Assembly (NCBI GenBank): GCA_025060295.1
Contig: JANXCH010000010.1
Coordinates: 1 to 33,776, forward strand
DNA length: 33,776 bases
Direction of reading: 5' to 3'
Source: Dehalococcoidia bacterium
GTDB lineage: Bacteria > Chloroflexota > Dehalococcoidia > Lucifugimonadales > HRBIN23
This document shows positions 8,359-21,925 of this stretch, piece after piece; the first letter of the stretch is position 1; every line of letters begins with the position of its first letter. The notes under the pieces are model-generated. The model was not told the origin of the DNA. It worked only from the letters and a program-made list of their open reading frames with translations, and did no database searches. The translations under genes were made by a program, and so were the position numbers.

Positions 8359-9605
8359 CTAGCGCTCCTGACGCAGGATGTCAAGGCCCCCCTGGGCGAT
8401 GTTGCGCGCCGCGTTGTAATCCCGCGGGCACGTGTTCCCACAGGGGCACTTAAACTCCCGCTGGTCCAGGGAGAGGTCCTGCTCCTTCCTACACTTGTAG
8501 CACCGCTTGGTGGTGCCGGCGGGGTTCACCCTTATGACACGGATGCCCTTCGCCCGCAGCTTGCTCTCCAGGATGTTCAGGAAGTAGCCGATGGGGAACT
8601 TGAGGGTCTGCCCCTTCAACTCATAGGTGAAGAAGGTCGGCTTGCGCAGGTCCAGGTTCTCCAGGGCCACCGCCTCGGCCCCGCCCTCCAGGGCGTAGTC
8701 CACCACCCGGTTGGCCAGGCGGTTGGCCCACCAGCGCCGGTAGCCCTCCCACCTCTTGCGCAGGGTGTGCAGGGGCTTGAACTTATAGCCCTTCCCGTGC
8801 CCCCGCCGTGCATCCCGCAAGGTCATGGTCTTCTGAATCTCCCTATACCTGCTCAAGAGGTTCTCCCGCATCCGGCGCAGGTCGCTCCCCTCCCAGTATT
8901 CCCGTTTCAAGGAGTCCGTCCACGCCGCCACCACGGCGTAGTGGATGCCCAGGTCAATGCCCATCACCCGCCCAGGCACAAAGGTGGGGCGCTGGGGCTG
9001 AAAGGTGTAGGCGATGCTCACAAAGAACTTCCCCCCCTGTCGGGTAATCGTCAGGTTGCCGGGCTTGTATTCCCGCGAGCGGATGCGCTCCAAGACGGCC
9101 CGCTGGGAGTCGTTCCCTGGGGGGATGAGTTCCAAAATGGGCTGTTGTTTCCCTTTCAGGATGGGCACCCACACCGTATCTTTCCCGACCCGTCATCCAG
9201 GAACTTCCACACCCTGTCCCGCACGGCCACACGGGTGGGCTTGAAGGAGGGGAAGGAGGCCCGCCCCCGCAGGGCCTCCCGTATCGCCCGCCTTTTGGCC
9301 CGCGCCTCGCTGTGGTAGAACACACTGCGCACGGCATCGGGGAGGAGGTCCCGGAAGGGCGCCTGTTCCTCCGGGGCGGTCTGGTTGGAGACTTTGGTGA
9401 CGATGTCCCAGTGCTTGGCGTCGGGGTTGAGCACGTCCTCGCGGATGAGGGCGTTGCCATAGGCGGCCGACAGGCGCGCCACGCGGGAGAAGAGGGTGCG
9501 CCACTCGGAGGGGGTGTAGTTGACGGGGAAGGCCTCCAGGCGCAGGGCAAGGGTAACTTTGCCCTTTTTTTGCTTTTGGAGGGCCTTGTCAGAGGCGTCG
9601 GCCAT
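8359..9605 (-). CDS. TnpB/Cas12-type RuvC nuclease, interrupted by a -1 frameshift
   Basis: RNA-guided nucleases of this family cut DNA with a single RuvC domain. Two overlapping frames make up the gene: the N-terminal 142 codons (9605-9180), then the -1 frame from 9180 to the stop at 8359. Joined, they give 415 residues, the size of TnpB or the smallest Cas12 proteins. The catalytic triad is complete: Asp218 in GIDLGIH, Glu316 in VALENLDL and Asp396 in CPRDYNAARNI. A zinc finger is formed by Cys369, Cys372, Cys387 and Cys389, the last pair spaced CxC. The N-terminus (VTLALRLEAFPV) departs from the usual TnpB YRLYPT start. No tnpA is present. It lies just after tRNA-Ile and before a folded region and a CRISPR array, which favours a type V-U-like effector. 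Programmed frameshifting, decay or an indel error are all possible. Confidence 0.85.
9180..9186 (-). other. In-phase -1 slippery heptamer G GGA AAG
   Basis: In the upstream frame the codons read TCG GGA AAG, so the heptamer G GGA AAG fits the X XXY YYZ pattern in the correct phase. A -1 slip here makes the next codon GAT at 9180 and leads directly into the RuvC-bearing frame. Without slippage the protein ends seven codons later without any catalytic residue. I see no strong stimulatory hairpin within 15 bases downstream. Confidence 0.55.
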
Positions 9606-11055: not shown

Positions 11056-13530
11056 CTAGCCCCTGTCGGCCGACGACGCCTCCTCCCACGCCACGGCCAG
11101 GGAGGCGACACTATCCCCCTCCTCCAGGGCGATGATGCGCGCCCCTCGGCTGTCCCGATGGTAGGTGGGCACCTCCCCCAGGGTGGTGCGCAGGACATGG
11201 GCTTTGGCGGTGGCCACCACCAGGTCGGCCTCCGGGTGGGGGGGCACCACCCGCGCCAGGGCCACGGGGCCTGTCTTGTCGGAGACAGCGAAGGTGGCGA
11301 TACCCTTCCTCCCCCGCCTTAGGGGGCGGAACTCGTCCAGGGGGGTGCGCTTGCCGAAGCCCTGGGCGCTGACCACCAGCAGTTCGCCCCCGGGGCGCAC
11401 CACCTCCATGGCGACCACCTGGTCGTCCTTCGCTAGGCGGATGCCCCGCACACCCCCCGCCTGACGGGAGCGCTGGGGGATGGACGCCACCCGGGTGCGC
11501 AGAGCCTTCCCCCGGCGGGTAACCAGCACCACCTCATCCTCTTCCCCCACCACCTGGGCGGAGACCAGTTCGTCGCCCGCCTCCAAGTCCATAGCCACCA
11601 GGCCCGCGGTCCGCACACTGGCCAGGGCTGCCAGGGGGATGCGCTTCACCTCGCCCTGCCGGGTGCACAGGAGCAGGAACGCCTCGCCCCCCAGGGCGGA
11701 GACGGCCCGCACGGAGGTGATGGCCTCCCCCGTGCCGATGCCCACCAGGTTGGCCAGGGGTGTGCCCCGGGTGGCGCGGGTGGTGTCTTCGGGGATGTCG
11801 TAGACCTTGAGGGCATACACCCACCCCCGCTTGGAGAACAGGAGGAGGGTGTCGTGGGTGTCGCACACCACCAGGTGGCGGACGGCGTCGTCCTCGCGGG
11901 TGAGCATGCCCTTCACGCCCTTGCCCGCCCGGTGCTGGCGATGGTAGGTGCTGACGGGGATGCGCTTGATGTAGCCATTGGCCGAGAGGGTAACCACCAC
12001 CTGGGCGTGGGGCACCAGTTCCTCCCGGGAGAGTTCCCGCACCTCCTCGGCGAGCACCTGAGTGCGGCGGGCGTCGCCGTAGTCCTTCTTCAGTTGGAGG
12101 GTTTCCCGGCGCACCTCGGCCAGAATTTTGCGGGGGTCGGCCAAAAGGGCCTGGAGGCGTTCAATCTCCTGGCGCAGGGCCTGGTATTCCTCCTCCAGTT
12201 TCTGGCGGTCCAGGGCGGTGAGGCGGCGCAGTTGCATGTCCAAGATAGCCTGGGCCTGCACCTGGGTGAGGCCGAAGCGCTCCATCAGGCGTTGGCGGGC
12301 GGTGTCGGCGTCGGGGGCCTGGCGGATGATGCGAATGACCTCGTCCAGGAACTGGAGGGCGATGCGCAGGCCCTCCAGGATGTGGGCGCGCTCCTGGGCC
12401 TTGCGCAGGTCGTGCTGGGCGCGGCGGGTTACCACCTGCTGGCGATGCTGGATGTACAGTCCCAGCATCTCCTTCAGGGAGAGCACGCGGGGCTGGCCCT
12501 CCACTAGGGCCAGCATGTGCACGGTGAAGGCGCTCTGCAGGGGGGTGTGCTTGTAGAGGTTGTTCAGGACGATGTCCGCCTGGGCTTCCCGCTTGAGTTC
12601 CACCACTACCCGCAGGCCCTCCCGGTCGGATTCGTCCCGCACCTCGGCGATGCCTTCTATCTTCTTTTCGCGGGCGAGGGTGGCGATGCGCTCCACCAGG
12701 GCGGCCTTGTTCACCTGGTAGGGAACTTCCGTGATGACGATGGTGGGGCGGCCCTTTTTGGGCTCCACCACCTGGGCCTTCCCCCGCACCAGGATGCGCC
12801 CCTGGCCGGTGGCATAGGCGCGCAGGAGGCTCTGGCGCCCTGCGCCTGCCAGGACGATGCCCCCCGTGGGGAAATCGGGCCCCTGCACGATGCCCAGCAG
12901 GTCCTCCACGGGGGTGTCGGGGTCGTCTATGAGGCGGACGATGGCATCGCACACCTCCGCGAGGTTGTGGGGGGGGATGGAGGTGGCCATGCCGACGGCG
13001 ATGCCGCTGGCCCCGTTGACCAGCAGGTTGGGCAGACGGGCGGGGAGCACGGCGGGCTCCTGCAGGGAGCCGTCAAAGTTGAGGACGAAGTCCACCGTGT
13101 CCCGGTCAATGTCGGCCAGCATCTCCTCGGCGATGGGGGCCAGGCGCGCCTCGGTGTAGCGCATGGCGGCGGGAGGGTCGTCGTCAATGGAGCCGAAGTT
13201 GCCCTGGCCGTCCACCAGGGGGTAGCGGAGGGTGAAGTCCTGGGCCATGCGCACCATGGCCTCGTAGACGGGGGCGTCGCCGTGGGGGTGGTATTTGCCC
13301 AGCACCTCGCCCACGATGCGGGCGGACTTTTTGTAGGGGGCGCCGGGGCGCAGGCCCAGCTCCTGCATGGCGTAGAGGATGCGCCGTTGGACAGGCTTGA
13401 GGCCATCCCGCACATCGGGCAACGCCCGCGCCACGATGACGGACATGGCGTAGTCCAGGTAGGAGGAGCGCAGTTCCTCTTCTATGCGGACGGGGGTGAG
13501 GACTTTGGCGATGGCAGGGCCAGAGACCAT
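11056..13530 (-). CDS. gyrA: DNA gyrase subunit A
   Basis: An 824-residue type IIA topoisomerase subunit that cuts and rejoins DNA for ATP-driven negative supercoiling with GyrB. The winged-helix and tower domains fill the N-terminal 500 residues, with catalytic Tyr125 in [12 protein letters not shown]. Six beta-propeller blades follow; blade one holds a GyrA-box-like QHRAGKG (canonical QRRGGKG), which supports GyrA over ParC. In the quinolone-resistance region [12 protein letters not shown], Ala86 replaces the Ser83 of E. coli and Glu90 replaces Asp87. Such natural changes reduce drug binding through the water-metal bridge in other species. The ATG at 13530 is preceded by GCAGGAG. gyrB is not adjacent. 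An AT-richer island starts within 80 bases upstream. Confidence 0.96.
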
Positions 13531-13606
13531 ATCTACACTCCTGCAGGGGCCTGGGGGGCAGACAATGATGCGTTCATCAAGCGACGATCGTTATCGAACA
13601 TCACTT

Positions 13607-15906
13607 TTACTCCGCCTCCTCCCCCTTGTCAAGATCGCGTGGATGGTTATTCCTGAGAATATAGAGTACGTAATGCACTAAGTTCTTCATTATAGATGGC
13701 AATAAATCCTCGAGGGAGTCGAAGTCGTTACTATGTTGTGCATCACTGAGAGCTTTGTGAACAGCTACGGCGCAATAATAGATCGAACTGCAGTAACGCT
13801 CAATGAAAAATTGTCTTGCCTTCTCGAAAAGTTTAAGTTGTTGCAACGCGTTTTCGAATATTGTAGCGTTCATATTGATATACACATCCATGCTATCAGA
13901 CGATCTTCTCACATCAGCGATATCGTCGCCAGTCCAAGAGCGATTGTAACCCAATTTTTCGCCGATCTCTTGCCATTGTGACCTATCCACTGGAATGGGC
14001 CGGGGATAACTTGCTGAGCCTGGTAACTGGGGATTCTTCTTTCCAGGGTTTTGTTTAGTAGGATGGGGGGGTATATAACGAACCTGCAATTGGACTGTTA
14101 GGGGATCTAGTTCAGGTCTAGTCAGTTTTACAGTAACGAGTGTGGTTGATCCTTCCCGCGCGTCTCTTGCAGGTTTCAGAGTTAACCAAATGATGCCCTG
14201 ACGAATTTCACGAGATTTCAACATCTCGGGAGGATGCACGATCAGTGTACCTCCTCTACCGGGGGGACGACGGAAATAATCGTCACTCGCATCGGTTTCG
14301 AGTAAAACACGGACATAGGAATTGATCGGTAGGGCTTTTTGATACAAACCTTTGCCTTCGTTCCATTTGTGTATACGTAAATAAGTAGGTATCTCTCTGC
14401 CTCGCCACTGAATACTCTTCACAGGACCTGGATCCACCGCTGCTATCGGCCGAGAAGAACCGGATCGGAGTATAAAGCGCCCGAAGTAAGGGTCACTTAC
14501 TACTGAATCCAATATAACTTGATCCAATTTCTGTTGATCTCTTGCGACCGAACTGATAATATTTCTGCGATATTCTTCTTTCCAGGCTTTGAGTGTCGAG
14601 GATTCGCGCAACTCTTCGGCTAAAGCATCTTCGATACCCTTTGTATCCACACCTTTAGCCATCCGGTCACGCGAAGCCATGAAAACCCTCTCCAAAATAT
14701 TCACATCATCATCAGAACAATCGATATGAACCAATAGTTTATCGGCTATATAGGGTTTTTCGGCCTTCGATTTCAAAAAAGATCGACCGATAGTAGCATG
14801 GGTTTGACCATTGATGGTAAAAAATATAGCCTCGTCGTCACTGAAAAATTCGTTTTTTCTAGCTTCAGGTGAAAACGAATACTCCACTATATGTCTGTGT
14901 CCCAGTACCTTCAAATCAGCCTCAATATCCGTCTCGTCTTTCAAAAGACTGCGATCATCCACCTTGATCCGATATTTGTTGCCTAACAGTATCTTGGACG
15001 GGCTATGACCGCCATATTGGCGTTTATCATATAATATTATTGGTAGCGCAGGATAATAAAGGCGTCGATTCAGTTCTCTCCATAATCCGAGGGTGATCAC
15101 ACTGGTATCTCGCAGCTCGTAGTTGAACAATTTTATGAAAGTCCCGTGACTCAGCATTCTATCTTCACGCAATAACGGCAAATCCTCGCCTGAGAAAGAA
15201 AAAATCGGACCGTCTTCTCGGGTGCAATACTCAAACCAAGACGAACGATCACCTGGCCCCGCTCTATGCCATCGTATTAGTGTGAAACCCCACAAATCCT
15301 GCTGATCCCCCCTGAGCAACTTCGGATGTCGCCTTGATAATATGAATTTGTATCCATTGTTCCCGCAAAAACGCAGGACGCCCGAACTGCCCATATGATA
15401 TTTGCCTTGAACAAACTGTATACGCAACTTCACACCAGCATGTAAAGCTAAAAATGTTTGCTCAAAATCAGAAGGGTGTTGACCCTCACCGGTATCAATA
15501 ACACAAATGTTCATCGCTTCCTTCTCACCGTCGGCGACGACCCATATGTTATTTTCTGCTAACTCTCTGCGTTTTTTGTGATTACTTCTGAAAAATCGCC
15601 CTCGCGTATACCGAAGAAACGCTCCACTGCATCTGCCATGTTCCGTGGCGCTTGCGGGCTTTCGGGATCAATGCCCCTCAATCTGCACTCGCGGAGGAGA
15701 ACATGGTCGATACTGTTGACGATTATATCTGTCGATGCTGCGACAGGCTTTTGTTGCTGGTTGAAAACGGTTCCGGCAAACTGTCTGCCACCATAAGTTT
15801 TCCACCTAGCATTGTGTAATAGAGGGTGGTGTTCGATCAGATCAGTTACTGCGTTTTCGCTTTGTGCTCCGGCAAGCGCTAAAGCCAACTCTTTTTCAGA
15901 AGTCAT
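13607..15906 (-). CDS. Large GHKL-fold ATPase, split by a -1 frameshift
   Basis: The GHKL (gyrase, Hsp90, histidine kinase, MutL) ATPase motifs are divided between two overlapping frames. The first frame (15906 to 15571) carries an N-box-like VNSIDHVLL with Asn64. The second (15571 to 13607) carries the G1 box IDTGEGQ with Asp138 and a glycine-rich lid GKYHMGSSGVLRFCG (about 168-182). Joined at the A AAA AAC heptamer (15571-15577) they give about 766 residues. Alone, the downstream frame starts inside the ATP site and cannot work. The C-terminal two thirds have no domain that I recognise. Similar ATPases of this type are found in defence-rich regions, but their biochemical role is unknown to me. 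It follows a HARE-HTH gene by 15 bases and has CGGAGG before its ATG. Base composition is clearly lower in GC than the flanks. Confidence 0.72.
15571..15577 (-). other. In-phase -1 slippery heptamer A AAA AAC
   Basis: The upstream codons read ACA AAA AAC, so this classic -1 frameshift heptamer is in the right phase. After a slip the next codon is CGC at 15571, and the RRELAENNIWVV sequence continues into the ATPase frame. A six-A run is also a common place for single-base indels or sequencing errors. Confidence 0.5.
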
Positions 15907-15921
15907 ACTCAGCCTCCGTTA

Positions 15922-16476
15922 CTATATAATCTTATTGCCGCTTTTTTGCGACCTACTGCGTCGTTTGCGCCTTGCACTAACTGTTTCTGTTCCCCATGAT
16001 ACTAGCGCATAGTATCCCCGTTGCCCGGCTTGCACGAACCGCTTGTCGCGTGTGATCTGTGTGAGTAGATTTGCTGCCGGGTCTTTGCCGCCGATGTAGA
16101 CCCCATTTGCGAGGACTTTTTCCGCTATCATTCTGTAGTGCATAGGCTTACCATATCCGCATAAAACATCATATGCTACATCAACAGGTCTCCGCCCACG
16201 CTCTTGCTGTGTAGAAGGATTCTCAACCGCCAAACCCTCCAATCGCAATAATGCGTCAACATGGTCTAACTTTTCTTGTAAAATCTTCTTTTTTTGTTCC
16301 AAAGGCTTGATTTCCCGTACATATTGAGCGTGTATTTGAGCCAGCGACGCATCAACGCTCTGGAGCTCGGTTATCAGACGCTGGCGCGTCGCCTGTAGCT
16401 CCTGTAACCACAGACCACTTTTGTCATCTTGCTGTGTCAATGACGGTACGGGGGATAACCTGCCAACCTGCTCCAT
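15922..16476 (-). CDS. Coiled-coil protein with HARE-HTH winged-helix domain
   Basis: A 184-residue protein. Residues about 22-85 form a charged coiled coil (LQATRQRLITELQ through LQEKLDHVDALL). Residues about 95-160 match the HARE-HTH domain: RRPVDVAYDVLCGYGKPMHYRMIAEKVL, then KDPAANLLTQITRDKRFVQAG and a GYYAL strand. HARE-HTH domains occur in RNA polymerase delta, eukaryotic ASXL proteins and restriction enzymes, and have been proposed to sense modified DNA. The C-terminus is strongly basic (RRKRRSRSQK), as expected for nucleic-acid binding. It is the first gene of a two-gene unit with the GHKL ATPase, is AT-richer than the flanks and has its own near-consensus promoter. A role as the DNA-recognition partner of the ATPase is inference. 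Confidence 0.75.
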   Translation of the reverse strand: MEQVGRLSPVPSLTQQDDKSGLWLQELQATRQRLITELQSVDASLAQIHAQYVREIKPLEQKKKILQEKLDHVDALLRLEGLAVENPSTQQERGRRPVDVAYDVLCGYGKPMHYRMIAEKVLANGVYIGGKDPAANLLTQITRDKRFVQAGQRGYYALVSWGTETVSARRKRRSRSQKSGNKII

Positions 16477-16507
16477 AACTCTCTCCCTTGTTGTATTCTA
16501 CGCTGAT

Positions 16508-16535
16508 ATGATACCAAAAAATCGCTTGTTGTCAA
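16508..16535 (-). promoter_or_regulatory. Near-consensus sigma70 promoter for the HARE-HTH/GHKL unit
   Basis: On the minus strand a perfect TTGACA (-35, plus coordinates 16530-16535) is followed after 16 bases by TATCAT (-10, 16508-16513), itself preceded by TGG as an extended -10. The start codon lies 31 bases downstream with GGGAGAG as its ribosome binding site. It is far closer to the E. coli consensus than the other promoters in the window. Confidence 0.75.
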
Positions 16536-16568
16536 GCCCCTATTCCCACATTGCACTGAACCTTGTGG

Positions 16569-17768
16569 CTAGCCTTTTTGTCCCTCCCTCCGCACCACCA
16601 ACCACACCACCGGAATCGCCAACGCCTCCAGGGCGACGGCGAAGCCCACCACCCACCCAATACCCGCCTCATACAGTGCCCCCATGGCGGCGCTCCCCAC
16701 CATCCAGGCGATACCATAGGCTGCGTTGAAGACGCCGAAGGCCCAGCCCCGGCGCTCGGGCGGAGCCAGGGAGACCACCGCCGCTTTGCATACCGTCTCC
16801 TGGGCCCCCAGCACCACGCCCCACAGGAGCACCCCCGCCAGGGCCATCCCCGCCGAGGCGGAGAACACCAACGGGGCGATGGGCAGGCTGAGCAGGGGCA
16901 CCACCAGCAGGGAGCGCAGCCCCACCCGGTCAAACCAGCGCCCCAGGGCCAAACCCGCCAGGGCATCCACCCCCATCGCCAAGGCGAACAGGAGAGGGAT
17001 GTGCACCTCTGCCACCACGCCCGCCTGTTTGAAGTGGAAGCCCATGACCTGGAAGTGGGCGAAGCCCGCCACAGCCAGGGCAATGAAGGCGATGTAGAGC
17101 CAGAAGCGGGGGGACAGGCGGGACGCCTGGGCAGGGACGGGGGAGGGGGGCTCTAAGCGCTGGGGGTGGGGATACTGCCAACGCGCCAGGGCCAAAACCA
17201 GGAGGGCCATCCCCGCCGGCACGGCCAGAATGGCGAAAGCCCACCGATAGCCACCCCCCAGAGCCAAGGCCCCCGCCACCACCAGGGGGCCCGCCACGGC
17301 CCCTATCTGGTCCAGGGCCTCGTGGAGGCCGAAGGCCCACCCCCGCCCCAGACGGGCCGCAGCGTAAGAGAGCATGGTATCCCGTGCGGGGGTGCGTACC
17401 CCTTTGCCGATGCGTTCGGCCACGATAAGGGCCGAGGCCACATCCCACCGGCTGGCCAGGGCGAGAAGGGGCACGGCCGTCATGTTCACGGCATAGCCCA
17501 GCATAGCGATGGGCCAGTAGCGGCGGGTGCGGTCGGCCAGGTAGCCGGCAGGCAGGCGGAGGGCATAGCCCATCACCTCCCCCAGGCCGGCCACAACGCC
17601 GACGGTGGCGGCGGAGGCCCCCAGGTGGGCCAGGAAGGGGCCGGTGATGCTGCGGGCACCCTCATAAGCCACATCGGCGCAGAGGCTCACCACCCCCAGC
17701 AGGAGCACGAACCCCAGGGCACTGCGCAGGGGGGCGGGGGGAGCCTCCCCAGTGTGCGAGATGCGCAT
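16569..17768 (-). CDS. Major facilitator superfamily transporter
   Basis: A 399-residue integral membrane protein with about twelve hydrophobic segments, the normal MFS size. The first block (LGFVLLLGVVSLCADVAYEGARS) and the loop motif ADRTRRYWPIAMLGY between helices 2 and 3 match the MFS signature G-x-x-x-D-R-x-x-R-R. A second half starting near residue 215 repeats the fold. The branch resembles uncharacterised MFS proteins often annotated as drug or sugar efflux carriers; the substrate cannot be predicted. The ATG at 17768 has GGAGG six bases upstream. It is divergent from the lipoprotein gene at 17890 and upstream of the AT-richer two-gene unit, from which it is separated by 92 bases. Confidence 0.88.
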   Translation of the reverse strand: MRISHTGEAPPAPLRSALGFVLLLGVVSLCADVAYEGARSITGPFLAHLGASAATVGVVAGLGEVMGYALRLPAGYLADRTRRYWPIAMLGYAVNMTAVPLLALASRWDVASALIVAERIGKGVRTPARDTMLSYAAARLGRGWAFGLHEALDQIGAVAGPLVVAGALALGGGYRWAFAILAVPAGMALLVLALARWQYPHPQRLEPPSPVPAQASRLSPRFWLYIAFIALAVAGFAHFQVMGFHFKQAGVVAEVHIPLLFALAMGVDALAGLALGRWFDRVGLRSLLVVPLLSLPIAPLVFSASAGMALAGVLLWGVVLGAQETVCKAAVVSLAPPERRGWAFGVFNAAYGIAWMVGSAAMGALYEAGIGWVVGFAVALEALAIPVVWLVVRREGQKG

Positions 17769-17824
17769 GCACAGCCTCCGTGTACCGTTAAAAGAGAACT
17801 TGATGGCTGGTTACAGCATACACC

Positions 17825-17854
17825 TTGACGCCGAAAAATAAGCCATGTTAGATT
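17825..17854 (+). promoter_or_regulatory. Promoter for the lipoprotein gene
   Basis: TTGACG at 17825-17830 is followed after 18 bases by TAGATT (17849-17854), with TG one base before it as an extended -10; TTAGAT at 17-base spacing is an alternative reading. The ATG at 17890 lies about 35 bases downstream. Confidence 0.6.
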
Positions 17855-17889
17855 GGCGCTAGTTCGTAGGCGCTGGGATGGGGACGGTG

Positions 17890-18948
17890 ATGCCTAAGGT
17901 GCGCTACTTGGGAAGCCGAAAAGCCGCGGGAACAGCGCACACGGCCCTCTGAATTGCCCTCCTTCTGCTCTTGATGGCAGGTTGCACCCGTGTGGTGGTG
18001 GTTGTGGCGACTCCCACGCCAACAGCATCTGACACGCCTGGCCCCCTTGCACACTCGGTTGAATCCACACCTACATCACCTTCTACTCCTACGCCAACGG
18101 CCACGCCAACACCGACACCTAGACCCATCCCTACACCGACGCCGATACCGACACCTAGACCTACGCCCACTCCAGGCCCACGTTTGCAACAGCAATTGCC
18201 CAGACATGTCTATGAGGGTTTCTACAGAGCCTTCTACGAGGGCTGTCGGATTCCAGCTTTTGAAAGTCTCCGAGTCTTGCAGCAGTGGACCGGGAACCAA
18301 AACAAGCGGATAGAGTTTCGCCCACCAGAAGGTTCGTGGTTCTTGGCTGTTGTGGGCGCTCCTCAAGCCACCTTTTGGTCGTTCACCGCTCTTGTAGAAT
18401 CGCCTGGTGGGCAGAAATATCAAGTGTTAACAATAAACAATTCGGCAGGAGACACAAACAATGCCCATATGTGGTGCTCAACAGGCCGTTCTATTATACC
18501 GTATTTATTAGAGACGCAACCTGTCAATGTCGTTCGGACGGTTTTTCTTGTTGCTCCTGGTGCTGGTGACCCGCTCCCACGATCAGTTGCAACGGCATTA
18601 CAGGGGTTCTATGGGGATTGTCCTGAAAAGCCCTCTATTTACCAACTGCATGCCTCGATTCTAGCAACTTCACGGAGTGCCGTCCAAGGAACAATGACAA
18701 TCCCCTTTGATGTGCGTCCGCCTTTCTACTTCTTAGCAGTAGATTTTGATCCTCAGCAAAGCACTTGGCATTTCAGAAGTATAGATAGCAGCGCAAATTG
18801 GCGTTCATTGGGACCTAGTGTAAGTAGTGCCGACGGGAGGCGCATGGATTTCTCAGCGGTTTGTCCTCAGAGTCCGAGCCCCCACAGACTTGAGGTAGAC
18901 TGGAGTGGGGGACAATGGACACTTTATCTCATTATGGTCGCCCCGTAA
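17890..18948 (+). CDS. Predicted lipoprotein with Pro-Thr-rich linker; in-frame TGA in the signal peptide
   Basis: A secreted protein of about 352 codons. From the ATG at 17890 the frame begins MPKVRYLGSRKAAGTAHTAL, meets TGA at 17950-17952, then continues IALLLLLMAGC into the rest of the protein. Together these form a textbook lipoprotein signal peptide with lipobox LMAGC, so the TGA looks like a nonsense change or error, perhaps for a TGG codon. An internal start at the TTG or ATG at 17971-17976 would leave no n-region. A Pro-Thr repeat linker (about 25 to 68 residues after the Cys) is followed by a roughly 250-residue domain that I do not recognise, with a few cysteines. The gene is AT-richer than most neighbours, which hints at recent acquisition. 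A good promoter lies upstream. Confidence 0.7.
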
Positions 18949-18960
18949 TGATCAACTGTA

Positions 18961-19773
18961 CTATGACAATGGATCAGATTTTGTCACCTTTTTCTGGAAG
19001 AGCATCACATACTCGTGGCGGAAGATGTAGAACCCGCCCCGCAACGCCCGATAGCGCCACAGGTTGGTGGTCTTCCCCTTCCCTCGCTCGTTGCCCTGGA
19101 TGTCCTTCACATTGATGGCCTTCAGGCGCAGGCCCGCCTTCCGACACACCTCCATGCAATAGAACCCCAGGGGCACCCACTCCCCCCGCGTGTACTTGTC
19201 GCCGATGACCAGGGCCAGGTGCCGACCGGGGGCCAGCAGATCTACGGCGTTGGCCACCGCCTTGGCGAAGCGGTCTAGGAAAGCCTTCACCGTCGGGGCA
19301 CGGGACAGATCACGGGGGTCATCGCTGAACTTGATGATGTCGTGGTAGGGGGGATGGAGGATAAGGCAGTGGGCGTGGGAGAGGCCCAGACGGTGCAGTT
19401 CGTCCCGCACCCGCTGGGCGGTGGAGGGCTCACAGGCGTCCAGCCCCTCCAGCACAACCGTGTGGACGCCGTAGGGGTTTTCGGCCTGCTCTACTACCTC
19501 TTGGGCGCGCCTGGCCACATGGGGCACCAGTTCCACGCCGATGCCGTGGCGCCCCAGGCGGCGGCACTCGATGAGCGTGGTGCCCAACCCGCAGAACAGG
19601 TCCACCACCACCTCCCCCGGCTGGGTGAAGCGGCGGAGCACCTGGTTGGGGATTTGGGGGACAAAGTTGCCCCAGTATTCGGGGGTGTGGACGCTGGAGG
19701 CGTCCCTGCGCCCCAGAAGCCACAGGGAGTCTAAGATGAGGTCATCGGGGGGAGAAACCCGAGTCGTTTTCAT
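18961..19773 (-). CDS. DNA methyltransferase-like protein (N6/N4 amino-methylase fold)
   Basis: A 270-residue Rossmann-fold protein when started at the ATG at 19773 (GGTGGG upstream). The AdoMet-binding motif is VVDLFCGLGTTLIECRRLG near residue 60. The catalytic tetrapeptide region reads LILHPPYHDIIKF, so the usual Asp or Asn of (D/N)PPY is replaced by His. The segment HLALVIGDKYTRGEWVPLG resembles the late motifs of DNA amino-methylases. Unlike the enzyme at 70-1192, motif I precedes motif IV here, a gamma/alpha-like order. It ends 12 bases from the convergent lipoprotein gene and lies 55 bases downstream of the DUF1828 gene. Given the odd catalytic motif, it may methylate something other than DNA or be inactive. 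Confidence 0.75.
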   Translation of the reverse strand: MKTTRVSPPDDLILDSLWLLGRRDASSVHTPEYWGNFVPQIPNQVLRRFTQPGEVVVDLFCGLGTTLIECRRLGRHGIGVELVPHVARRAQEVVEQAENPYGVHTVVLEGLDACEPSTAQRVRDELHRLGLSHAHCLILHPPYHDIIKFSDDPRDLSRAPTVKAFLDRFAKAVANAVDLLAPGRHLALVIGDKYTRGEWVPLGFYCMEVCRKAGLRLKAINVKDIQGNERGKGKTTNLWRYRALRGGFYIFRHEYVMLFQKKVTKSDPLS

Positions 19774-19828
19774 CCCACCACCTGCTGGGGCAATCGTTTT
19801 CTGCACAGGGGCGTGCTGAACCCTGCCT

Positions 19829-20590
19829 CTAAGGGACAACTTTGAACTCCTCTAGCAGGATCTTAAGCAATTGGTGTTCGTTGAGGGAAAAGAGACGATG
19901 GGGACACACCTCGGCGAATCGGCGTAGAGAGCGTTTATCCACCGCCCCTTCGTTCTCAAAGATGCCGAGGGGGATGAAGGAAATGCCCTGCCGTTCGTAC
20001 CAGTACAGTTTCACCGCCGCCCGGTCGCAGTGCTCGTTGTTGGCGATGGCAAAGGCGAAGATAGGGGCTCCTTCCCGCTCTATCTTGAAGTCCACAGTGT
20101 ACGCACCTTCCTGATCGACTTCCACTGTATAGTTTTTGACCACACGATCGGAGGGAAGGATTTTGGCGAGAACACGGGCTACATCCTCGTGGAAGATGCG
20201 CCGCACCTCCTCTCGGCGTAGATACAGGAGATCCACCACCTGCTGGAGCAGTTGGAGGTAGCGCAGGAGGCCCTTGCCCAGGTCGTAGGTGGCAAGGCGG
20301 ATTTCTCCGTTCTGCTCTTCGGCGCCAGCCCCCCGCAAAATGGCCCCAAAACGCTCCTGGCGGGCCGGCGTATCAATCGTGAACTCCAAATCGGCCAGGT
20401 GGAAGAGAGTGTGCCCGTGGTCGGTGAACACCCAACCTTCACCCTTTTGCTGAACGGCGACGACGAAATGGTCGCCGTCGGGGAAAGCGAAAGGCGTGTC
20501 AATGACCCAGAGACCGGGTTCCACTTCGTTTACACGGACAGCCCGGCAGAGGCTCGTGCACAGCATCTCTTCTAATCGGCGCTTCTCCAT
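19829..20590 (-). CDS. DUF1828-domain protein
   Basis: A 253-residue protein. The N-terminal half fits the DUF1828 family, with the strand pair GLWVIDTPFAFPDGDHFVVAV followed by GWVFTDHGHTLFHLADLEFTI (about residues 48-70). The C-terminal half (about 130-250) resembles the DUF1829-type partner domain, with VDFKIEREGAPIFAFAIAN and an ISFIPLGIF strand. Neither domain has an established biochemical function that I know of; both recur near restriction, methylase and toxin-like genes. It begins 2 bases after the small gene upstream and is followed by the methyltransferase-like gene. This tight spacing suggests that the three act together. Confidence 0.68.
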   Translation of the reverse strand: MEKRRLEEMLCTSLCRAVRVNEVEPGLWVIDTPFAFPDGDHFVVAVQQKGEGWVFTDHGHTLFHLADLEFTIDTPARQERFGAILRGAGAEEQNGEIRLATYDLGKGLLRYLQLLQQVVDLLYLRREEVRRIFHEDVARVLAKILPSDRVVKNYTVEVDQEGAYTVDFKIEREGAPIFAFAIANNEHCDRAAVKLYWYERQGISFIPLGIFENEGAVDKRSLRRFAEVCPHRLFSLNEHQLLKILLEEFKVVP

Positions 20591-20592
20591 AC

Positions 20593-21093
20593 CTATCCCC
20601 CTAAAGGAAGTGGTAACTGATCACCGGGAGGTCGCTGTAGAGCACACTCCTGGATAAACTGCTCCCACGCCTCCTCCAGACTGGTGAAATGCGCCAGCAC
20701 AGCATAGTGGTCATGCCTTTCTGGGTTCTTCTCCCCATAGCGTTGCGTAGCCTTGTGGATATGGGGTTGACCTGCGGGGACTATCTCCCCCTCCAGGTCG
20801 TTCTCGTGGGCAGTCCGCAGAGGGCCGTGGTATCTCCGCAATCGCACCGCTCCATACTGAGGGTGGGTATAGAGGAGAACGATGGAGTAATCGTGCGGAA
20901 GCAGAGTGTTGGTGCGTACGATCACCTGGAAGTGATGCTCACCTACTGTGATGTCCACACGCCCCTCCTCATGGGGCTGGTGCCCTCCTTTAGGGCGTCG
21001 GCGTTTCATCAACCTTTCCCAATAGTCGGCGGGCAAAGGCTTCGGAAGACGCACCAGGAATTCTATTTCTTCATCGGTCAGAGGTGGAGGCAT
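20593..21093 (-). CDS. Uncharacterised protein of the DUF1828 locus
   Basis: A 166-residue protein that I do not recognise with confidence; it resembles small hypothetical proteins found beside DUF1828 genes. The N-terminus (LTDEEIEFLVRLPKPLP) looks like a short helix followed by a Pro-rich turn. The middle is beta-rich: VDITVGEHHFQVIVRTNT, then SIVLLYTHPQYGAVRLRRYHGP. The HPQYGAVRLRRYHG and PHIHKATQRYG segments give several conserved-looking His and Tyr residues, which could be a binding or active site. The C-terminus is a helix ending in a low-complexity tail. Its first 23 bases overlap the 3' end of the glutamine amidotransferase gene, suggesting translational coupling, and no strong ribosome binding site is visible. 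Confidence 0.7.
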   Translation of the reverse strand: MPPPLTDEEIEFLVRLPKPLPADYWERLMKRRRPKGGHQPHEEGRVDITVGEHHFQVIVRTNTLLPHDYSIVLLYTHPQYGAVRLRRYHGPLRTAHENDLEGEIVPAGQPHIHKATQRYGEKNPERHDHYAVLAHFTSLEEAWEQFIQECALQRPPGDQLPLPLGG

Positions 21094-21802
21094 CGCTTCT
21101 AACAGCTCTAGTGCCCTTGCGGGCAGCGGCGTGCTCTACGAGGAAGCGGAACAGGTTCTGGAACTGGGGCGGGACCTCCTTCACCCGCTCGGGGTGGCAT
21201 TGCACCCCCAGCACCCAGGTCTTCCCCGGGTGCTCCAGCCCCTCAATGATGCCGTCCTCCACGCTATAGGCCGAGGCCAGGAGCACGGGGGCCTTCTGGG
21301 CCTCCCGCAGGCCCTGGTGGTGGCGCGAGTTCACCCGCACCACACCTCCACTCCCCACAACCTGGGCCAGTTTGCTCCCCGGGGTGATGAAGATGCGATG
21401 GTAGGCCGACTCCCACCGCCCATCCCGGCGCTCGGCGCGGTGGCCGGGGATGTCCTGGAGCAGTTTGCCCCCCATGACCACATTGAGAGCTTGCATCCCC
21501 CGGCAGATGCCCAAGACGGGGTAGTCCCGCTCCACGGCCAGACGCAAGAGGGGCAGTTCCACCTCGTCGCGGGCGCGGAGCACTTCCAGGCCTGCGGCGG
21601 GGTCGGGGGCCTCCCCGTAGAAGGCGGGGTCAATGTCGGGCCCGCCGGTGAGCAAGAGGCCATCCACCTCGGCCAGGATGGCCTCGGGGGGGCGCTTCTC
21701 CTGGGGGGTGATGAGCACCACCTCCGCCCCGTGGGGCAGAAGGGCCTCCACATACGGGCGCGCCCAACGGTCGTCAGTGGTGGTCACAGCAATGCGCGGC
21801 AT
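21071..21802 (-). CDS. Class I glutamine amidotransferase-like (peptidase C26, PuuD-type) hydrolase
   Basis: A 243-residue protein of the gamma-glutamyl-GABA hydrolase type, which removes glutamate from gamma-glutamylated amines. The catalytic nucleophile is the Cys of GICRGMQALNV (about residue 100), with the partner His and Glu in VQCHPERVKE (about 203). The TGGPDIDP motif near residue 53 forms the oxyanion region. The segment SRHHQGL is typical of this branch. Stand-alone members act in polyamine or gamma-glutamyl catabolism, but no polyamine gene is close by. It overlaps the next gene by 23 bases. An extended -10 TGCTATCCT lies just upstream (21826-21834). Confidence 0.9.
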   Translation of the reverse strand: MPRIAVTTTDDRWARPYVEALLPHGAEVVLITPQEKRPPEAILAEVDGLLLTGGPDIDPAFYGEAPDPAAGLEVLRARDEVELPLLRLAVERDYPVLGICRGMQALNVVMGGKLLQDIPGHRAERRDGRWESAYHRIFITPGSKLAQVVGSGGVVRVNSRHHQGLREAQKAPVLLASAYSVEDGIIEGLEHPGKTWVLGVQCHPERVKEVPPQFQNLFRFLVEHAAARKGTRAVRSDASTSDR

Positions 21803-21825
21803 GCGTCCTCCTGGGGTGCGCTTCC

Positions 21826-21834
21826 AGGATAGCA
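21826..21834 (-). promoter_or_regulatory. Extended -10 element for the amidotransferase run
   Basis: The minus strand reads TGCTATCCT, an extended -10 box, 23 bases before the start codon at 21802. It is one of several TGn-type -10 elements in the window and may drive the four genes from 21802 down to 18961. Confidence 0.4.
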
Positions 21835-21925
21835 GAAGCCTCTGAAGGGGGACAGGAGGGAGGCGGCATGGCGGTCCTCCCTGTGGGGAGGTATACTGCC
21901 CCCCCCAGCATCAAGGAGGTATGCT

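Follow-up and report, generated by a model that had tools for sequence, protein, structure and literature searches.

Why does an AT-rich segment with a large ATPase gene lie beside gyrA in a dehalococcoidial genome of otherwise high G+C content, and does the ATPase still work there? The window analysed here is a stretch of 33,776 nucleotides (contig JANXCH010000010.1 of assembly GCA_025060295.1, referred to as C10), which belongs to a 1.61-Mb genome assembled in 23 contigs. The answer that we consider rather probable is that the segment is a horizontally acquired operon encoding a HARE-HTH protein and an Hsp90/MutL-like ATPase, that the ATPase represents a family, as yet without a name, with links to DNA modification and defence, and that the operon has been inactivated in this genome, where it persists as a recent relic. 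The features on which the discussion is based are collected in Table 1.

Table 1. Features of the window discussed in the text
Feature	Coordinates	Strand	Remarks
Remainder of GHKL ATPase, 635 aa	13607..15514	-	frame open upstream to ~15622
N-terminal GHKL ATPase fragment, 115 aa	15559..15906	-	carries the N-box; Asp60 for catalytic Glu, Ile61 for Lys
-1 frameshift site AAAAAAC dividing the ATPase	15571..15577	-	A6C
HARE-HTH protein, 184 aa	15922..16476	-	PF05066; model mean pLDDT 67
Sigma-70-type promoter TTGACA-16-TATCAT, extended TG	16508..16535	-	upstream of HARE-HTH gene; 11/12 matches
N6/N4 DNA methyltransferase flanking the variable spot	18961..19839	-	PF01555 E=1.9e-14; MTase_II E=8e-96; present also in G585

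A probably acquired island at a variable site

The original prediction described an AT-richer, two-gene island next to gyrA with a near-consensus promoter of its own. The composition is as described. The 2,870 bp from 13607 to 16476 have a G+C content of 46.1%, against about 67% around them (segments of the same size elsewhere have a mean of 67.6%, a standard deviation of 1.6 and a minimum of 62.7), and the two 60-base G+C counts that had been given, 26 from position 14761 and 38 from position 12181 in gyrA, were exact on recount. GC3 is 0.43-0.49 in the island genes versus 0.90 in gyrA. The promoter is also present and is the best among 9 matches, with 4.7 expected by chance. The gene content, HARE-HTH and GHKL ATPase, stands as well, but the number of open reading frames does not, as there are three of them and the ATPase frame is broken. 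The island was probably acquired horizontally. A search at the ends of the AT-rich segment for terminal direct repeats that would mark an insertion was negative.

Gene orders in related genomes point to a variable spot upstream of gyrA. In the same-genus genome G585, gyrA (84.6% identical DNA) is followed after about 130 bp by the methyltransferase gene of Table 1 (82%) and then by the gene corresponding to 21129-21837 of the window. The segments 13542-19002 and 19742-21128 of the window are absent from G585. The first of these exceeds the AT-rich island and includes an MFS transporter and a 325-aa ORF. The transporter is native-like in composition (GC3 0.86), yet it lies in the segment missing from G585, and the history of this place may therefore include losses as well as gains. 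In G234, which belongs to the same order, a single ORF separates gyrA from what, judged by eye, looks like the same glutamine-amidotransferase-type gene. The window methyltransferase has only distant similarity to those adjacent to the ATPase in other loci and was therefore left out of the module.

Several other ORFs of the window were noted. The 325-aa ORF (17971-18948, plus strand) has a GC3 of 0.45, includes a stretch rich in Pro and Thr, and matched nothing in Pfam or NCBIfam. A DUF1828 protein (19829-20590, minus strand), absent from G585, matches the PADLOC phage-defence candidate PDC-M24B (E=3e-17). A 166-aa ORF without a family (20593-21093, minus strand) is likewise absent from G585, which retains the neighbouring methyltransferase. 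At 8359-9605 (minus strand), there are two overlapping ORFs that look, by eye, like the two halves (C-terminal and N-terminal) of a transposon protein of TnpB type and possibly, again by eye, are a single gene split by a frameshift.

The HARE-HTH protein

The HARE-HTH protein consists of a long coiled coil (residues ~14-83), a C-terminal HARE-type winged helix (~97-158) and a basic tail. Its identity is confirmed by Pfam (PF05066, E=2e-7, 31.8 bits against a gathering cut-off of 25.9). A Foldseek search with its model, which was built from a three-sequence alignment, gave no significant match, so the fold assignment is based on Pfam and the alignment. None of the PADLOC 2.0.0 models matched the protein up to E=1. 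It has been proposed, in two papers that cite Aravind and Iyer 2012 (PMC10853773, PMC11037411), that HARE-HTH is a reader of modified DNA. The window protein is predicted to bind DNA and perhaps senses base modification. Its gene is still intact beside the broken ATPase.

A divided ATPase with altered residues

The large GHKL ATPase gene of the original prediction is upheld by homologues and by a structural model as far as its GHKL identity is concerned, but it is not a single open gene, since it is divided into two ORFs in different frames. The break falls between the N-box and the G1 box. The 635-aa part holds the G1 box (DTGEGQ), the G2/lid (QGKYHMGSSG), the S5/middle domain and a C-terminal region made of a beta part and a helical part. 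A -1 fusion at 15577-15571 gives a protein of 766 aa that can be aligned over its whole length with intact homologues encoded by one ORF; these are 755-910 aa long and come from plasmids and other genomes. In nearly all the relatives examined the reading frame continues across the frameshift point. The HARE-HTH-linked ATPase of locus L092 (981-3273) is split by a frameshift at another point, that of L145 is split near the C-terminus, and that of L110 ends at a contig end.

The window copy is also unusual in its residues. The N-box Glu is kept in 60 of 61 aligned sequences and the window copy is the sole exception, with Asp at this position and Ile in place of the Lys that follows. Further changes at near-invariant positions are S154A and N159V. 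The window ATPase has four departures from near-invariant positions, one of the two highest counts, and its end branch in the FastTree tree is 1.09 versus a median of 0.34. The split frame, the lost invariant Glu and the long end branch together lead us to read the window copy as a relic. Since the frameshift detaches the N-box from the other elements of the ATP site and Asp stands in place of the catalytic Glu, the operon has most likely been inactivated. We infer loss of function in the window ATPase and regard the copy as a probable, recent relic.

The 635-aa frame runs without a stop, although 35 and 42 stops occur in its other two frames; this fits a recent frameshift but would fit an assembly error too. 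It is somewhat unlikely, though a serious alternative, that the ATPase is intact in the organism, with the frameshift stemming from faulty sequencing or assembly of a homopolymer and the E60D protein working, perhaps more slowly. The break lies exactly at the A6 run, where a single missing A would explain it, and the number of contigs in the assembly is in keeping with such an error. The L092 relative is split as well, at another place; loss of the ATPase may recur, or both splits may be assembly errors. However, E60D, K61I and S154A/N159V are not accounted for by one missing base, and the Glu is kept in all other complete relatives. Programmed -1 frameshifting at A AAA AAC, which would yield a short N-terminal product as well as the full ATPase, is highly improbable in our judgement. 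The heptamer is in the right register, it is the sole such site in the 115-aa frame and a moderate stem lies downstream (z -1.46). This stem is nevertheless ordinary, as 17 of 200 shuffles fold as well, and the ATPase gene has eight runs of at least six equal bases. No relative is split at the heptamer, and the complete relatives are open there. Inactivation of the window copy is the reading that we retain.

Extent and fold of the ATPase family

An alignment search of genome contigs found 422 relatives of the ATPase in bacteria and archaea; a single-protein query against the same kind of contigs gave no match. One candidate, G001/L009, proved to be a false match and was discarded. The family occurs on plasmids too, and only 8 members were found in 2.9 million viral contigs. 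Its occurrence is patchy, with members in 8 of the 301 genomes from the phylum and in 17 of the 393 from the class. No Pfam, NCBIfam or PADLOC model matched the family at its cut-off, and for the window ATPase PADLOC 2.0.0 gave no match up to E=1. No PHROGs family matched the ATPase, and a search of its profile against PDB sequences was also negative.

The fold was approached with an AlphaFold2 model of the relative in L080, built from 60 sequences (mean pLDDT 88). Residues 45-459 of this model align with TRAP1/Hsp90 with a Z of about 16 and an rmsd of about 4.3 over about 300 residues (VIA-align) and span both TRAP1/Hsp90 domains, as expected of a GHKL+S5 protein. SMCHD1, MutL and ParE are also among its Foldseek matches. 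According to the model, the first two domains fold like Hsp90/MutL. The family has the GHKL invariants E66, N70, D73, D143, G145 and G147 (A2) together with the GHKL fold. With regard to a known housekeeping domain at the C-terminus, only GHKL ATPases are among the matches listed, and these hardly cover the C-terminal third.

Upstream partners and genomic neighbours

If the two genes of the island form a functional unit, they should be found together elsewhere. The pair does recur, in G618, L080 and L092 and in two Dehalococcoidia. In the first three, all Chloroflexota, the HARE-HTH gene directly precedes the ATPase gene on the same strand within at most 15 bases, the ATPases are 38-43% identical, and the genomic place differs from that of the window. 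In L052 (7805-9420) and L060 (3584-5120), which represent two different Dehalococcoidia families, operons have the order HARE-HTH, N6/N4 DNA methyltransferase and ATPase, and the ATPases are larger and divergent (924-930 aa). In a search that started from HARE-HTH, 2 of 9 other Chloroflexota loci were found to encode, no more than two genes away, an N-terminal GHKL protein that differs from the present ATPase. These proteins (L071:7311-9554, 748 aa; L072:2911-4371, 487 aa) match Pfam HATPase_c, and the HARE-HTH association is therefore not limited to one ATPase lineage.

Among the 106 related loci, HARE-HTH takes the upstream place in just 5. In 26, the gene immediately before the ATPase, at -59 to +27 bp (for example L089:240-464 and L082:2084-2293), encodes a 75-aa protein for which no family match was found; these loci are spread over many phyla, including candidate-phylum bacteria and archaea. 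Other loci have PIN, HTH_17, DndB, C5 methyltransferase and other genes in this position, DndB in 2 loci. On the ATPase tree (FastTree, SH-like support) the minimum number of label changes is at least 15 for the 75-aa protein and at least 3 for HARE-HTH. Such partner exchange suggests a modular design in which a sensor is combined with an engine.

The surroundings of the family are rich in genes for modification and defence. Gene clusters within 3 kb of the ATPase were counted in the same 106 loci. Methyltransferases are found in this range, N6/N4 in 11 loci and C5 in 8, as are PIN (7), GmrSD_N/DUF262 (6), PAPS reductase (4), and SIR2, Vsr, DrmA and DUF4007 (3 loci each). In Ensifer and Devosia, a sensor histidine kinase (HATPase_c plus HATPase_c_3) adjoins the family member. 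A near/far comparison of PADLOC matches around the ATPase loci gave no separation. Genes far from the ATPase also match defence models, so the contrast is unclean and no enrichment statistic is claimed.

Possible role of the family

The family is most likely a paraMORC-like, modification-linked putative defence ATPase with an exchangeable DNA-recognition partner. A more specific proposal, which we put forward tentatively, is that it is an uncatalogued but widespread defence family in which the ATPase is the common engine and the swappable upstream gene (HARE-HTH, 75-aa protein, PIN, HTH_17, DndB or methyltransferase) sets target recognition. In intact members the small upstream partner would dock the ATPase on DNA; in the HARE-HTH protein, the winged helix would bind DNA and the coiled coil would dimerise. 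The ATPase may then, like MutL, Hsp90 and MORC, form a dimeric clamp that ATP drives shut, and the closed clamp could remodel DNA or license a nuclease or methyltransferase. In the operons that contain a methyltransferase, self and non-self would be told apart by the mark of this enzyme. What the analysis shows is the homology, the fold, the recurrence of the pair, the exchange of partners, the defence-type neighbours, the variable site and the frameshift in the assembly; the DNA reading, the clamp mechanism and the putative anti-phage role are inferred.

Could the HARE-HTH and ATPase genes be chance neighbours in an AT-rich insertion? The small share of relatives with HARE-HTH upstream speaks for this, but the close same-strand linkage at another genomic place in G618, L080 and L092, the second, methyltransferase-containing type of HARE-HTH operon in L052 and L060, and the other N-terminal GHKL ATPases beside HARE-HTH in L071 and L072 make this quite improbable. 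It is also unlikely, to a lesser degree, that the task of the family, in the manner of MutL or MORC, is methyl-directed DNA repair or the shaping of chromosome structure and not anti-phage defence. The MutL/Hsp90-type fold, the Vsr and C5-methyltransferase neighbours in some loci and the copies in many genomes that have no obvious defence neighbour are in line with such a role, whereas the patchy spread, the plasmid copies and the DrmA, DndB, GmrSD and SIR2 neighbours fit mobile defence better.

Prokaryotic GHKL+S5 ATPases of modification systems are the proposed source of the eukaryotic MORC chromatin ATPases. The intact compact operons, HARE-HTH with ATPase and HARE-HTH with methyltransferase and ATPase, allow direct tests of the link between a supposed reader of modified DNA and the ATPase. 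The window copy, a probable relic, matters mainly as a pointer to the ATPase family.

Comparison with known systems

In VcSduA (PMC12137116), as in the family proposed here, a GHKL ATPase is present, and there it serves anti-phage defence. The Shedu nuclease is fused to it, however, while the partner in the present case is a separate gene of DNA-binding type, and no nuclease domain was found in the ATPase or HARE-HTH module. HEF_HK/Response_reg_2 pairs (PMC8011034) also involve paraMORC-related GHKL proteins at restriction-modification loci, and in Ensifer and Devosia the sensor histidine kinase noted above adjoins the family member. That protein is a separate GHKL protein of histidine-kinase type, however, and the present family has no kinase domain match. 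The HARE-HTH of modification-dependent restriction, for which PMC10853773 and PMC11037411 cite Aravind and Iyer 2012, is the same Pfam domain in a modification and defence context. A nuclease is fused to it in the PMC10853773 defence loci, whereas here it is part of a coiled-coil protein encoded beside the ATPase. A likeness to DISARM (DrmA helicase and methyltransferase) is seen in Halarchaeum, where the order is C5 methyltransferase, ATPase and DrmA-like helicase. No DrmA was seen next to the pair of the window, however, and loci with DrmA are a minority of the family.

The closest comparison is with MORC and paraMORC, GHKL+S5 ATPases that belong to restriction-modification systems (Iyer et al. 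2008, PMC2292703); looping or remodelling of DNA has been proposed as the task of paraMORC ATPases in restriction systems (PMC2292703). The MORC signature GhXhhpXXRhl in the S5 domain (PMC2292703) is found in 0 of 61 sequences of the present family, the paraMORC2 ExxxH in the S5 region is found in 10 of 61 and is not conserved, and the paraMORC5 HxH is likewise not conserved among the 61. ParaMORC3 has a C-terminal RE-fold nuclease with E-D-ExK; the charged columns conserved after residue 459 in the 61 sequences include no conserved acidic-Lys set, as judged from the alignment. The absence of the MORC, paraMORC2 and paraMORC5 motifs leads us to regard the ATPases as a new family of the GHKL+S5 modification-linked kind, set apart from these three by their described motifs. 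Like MORC and paraMORC, they combine an N-terminal GHKL domain with a second, S5-like domain, are laterally mobile and have C5 and N6/N4 methyltransferases, Vsr and SF2 helicases as neighbours. Unlike MORC and paraMORC, they have an exchangeable upstream partner gene.
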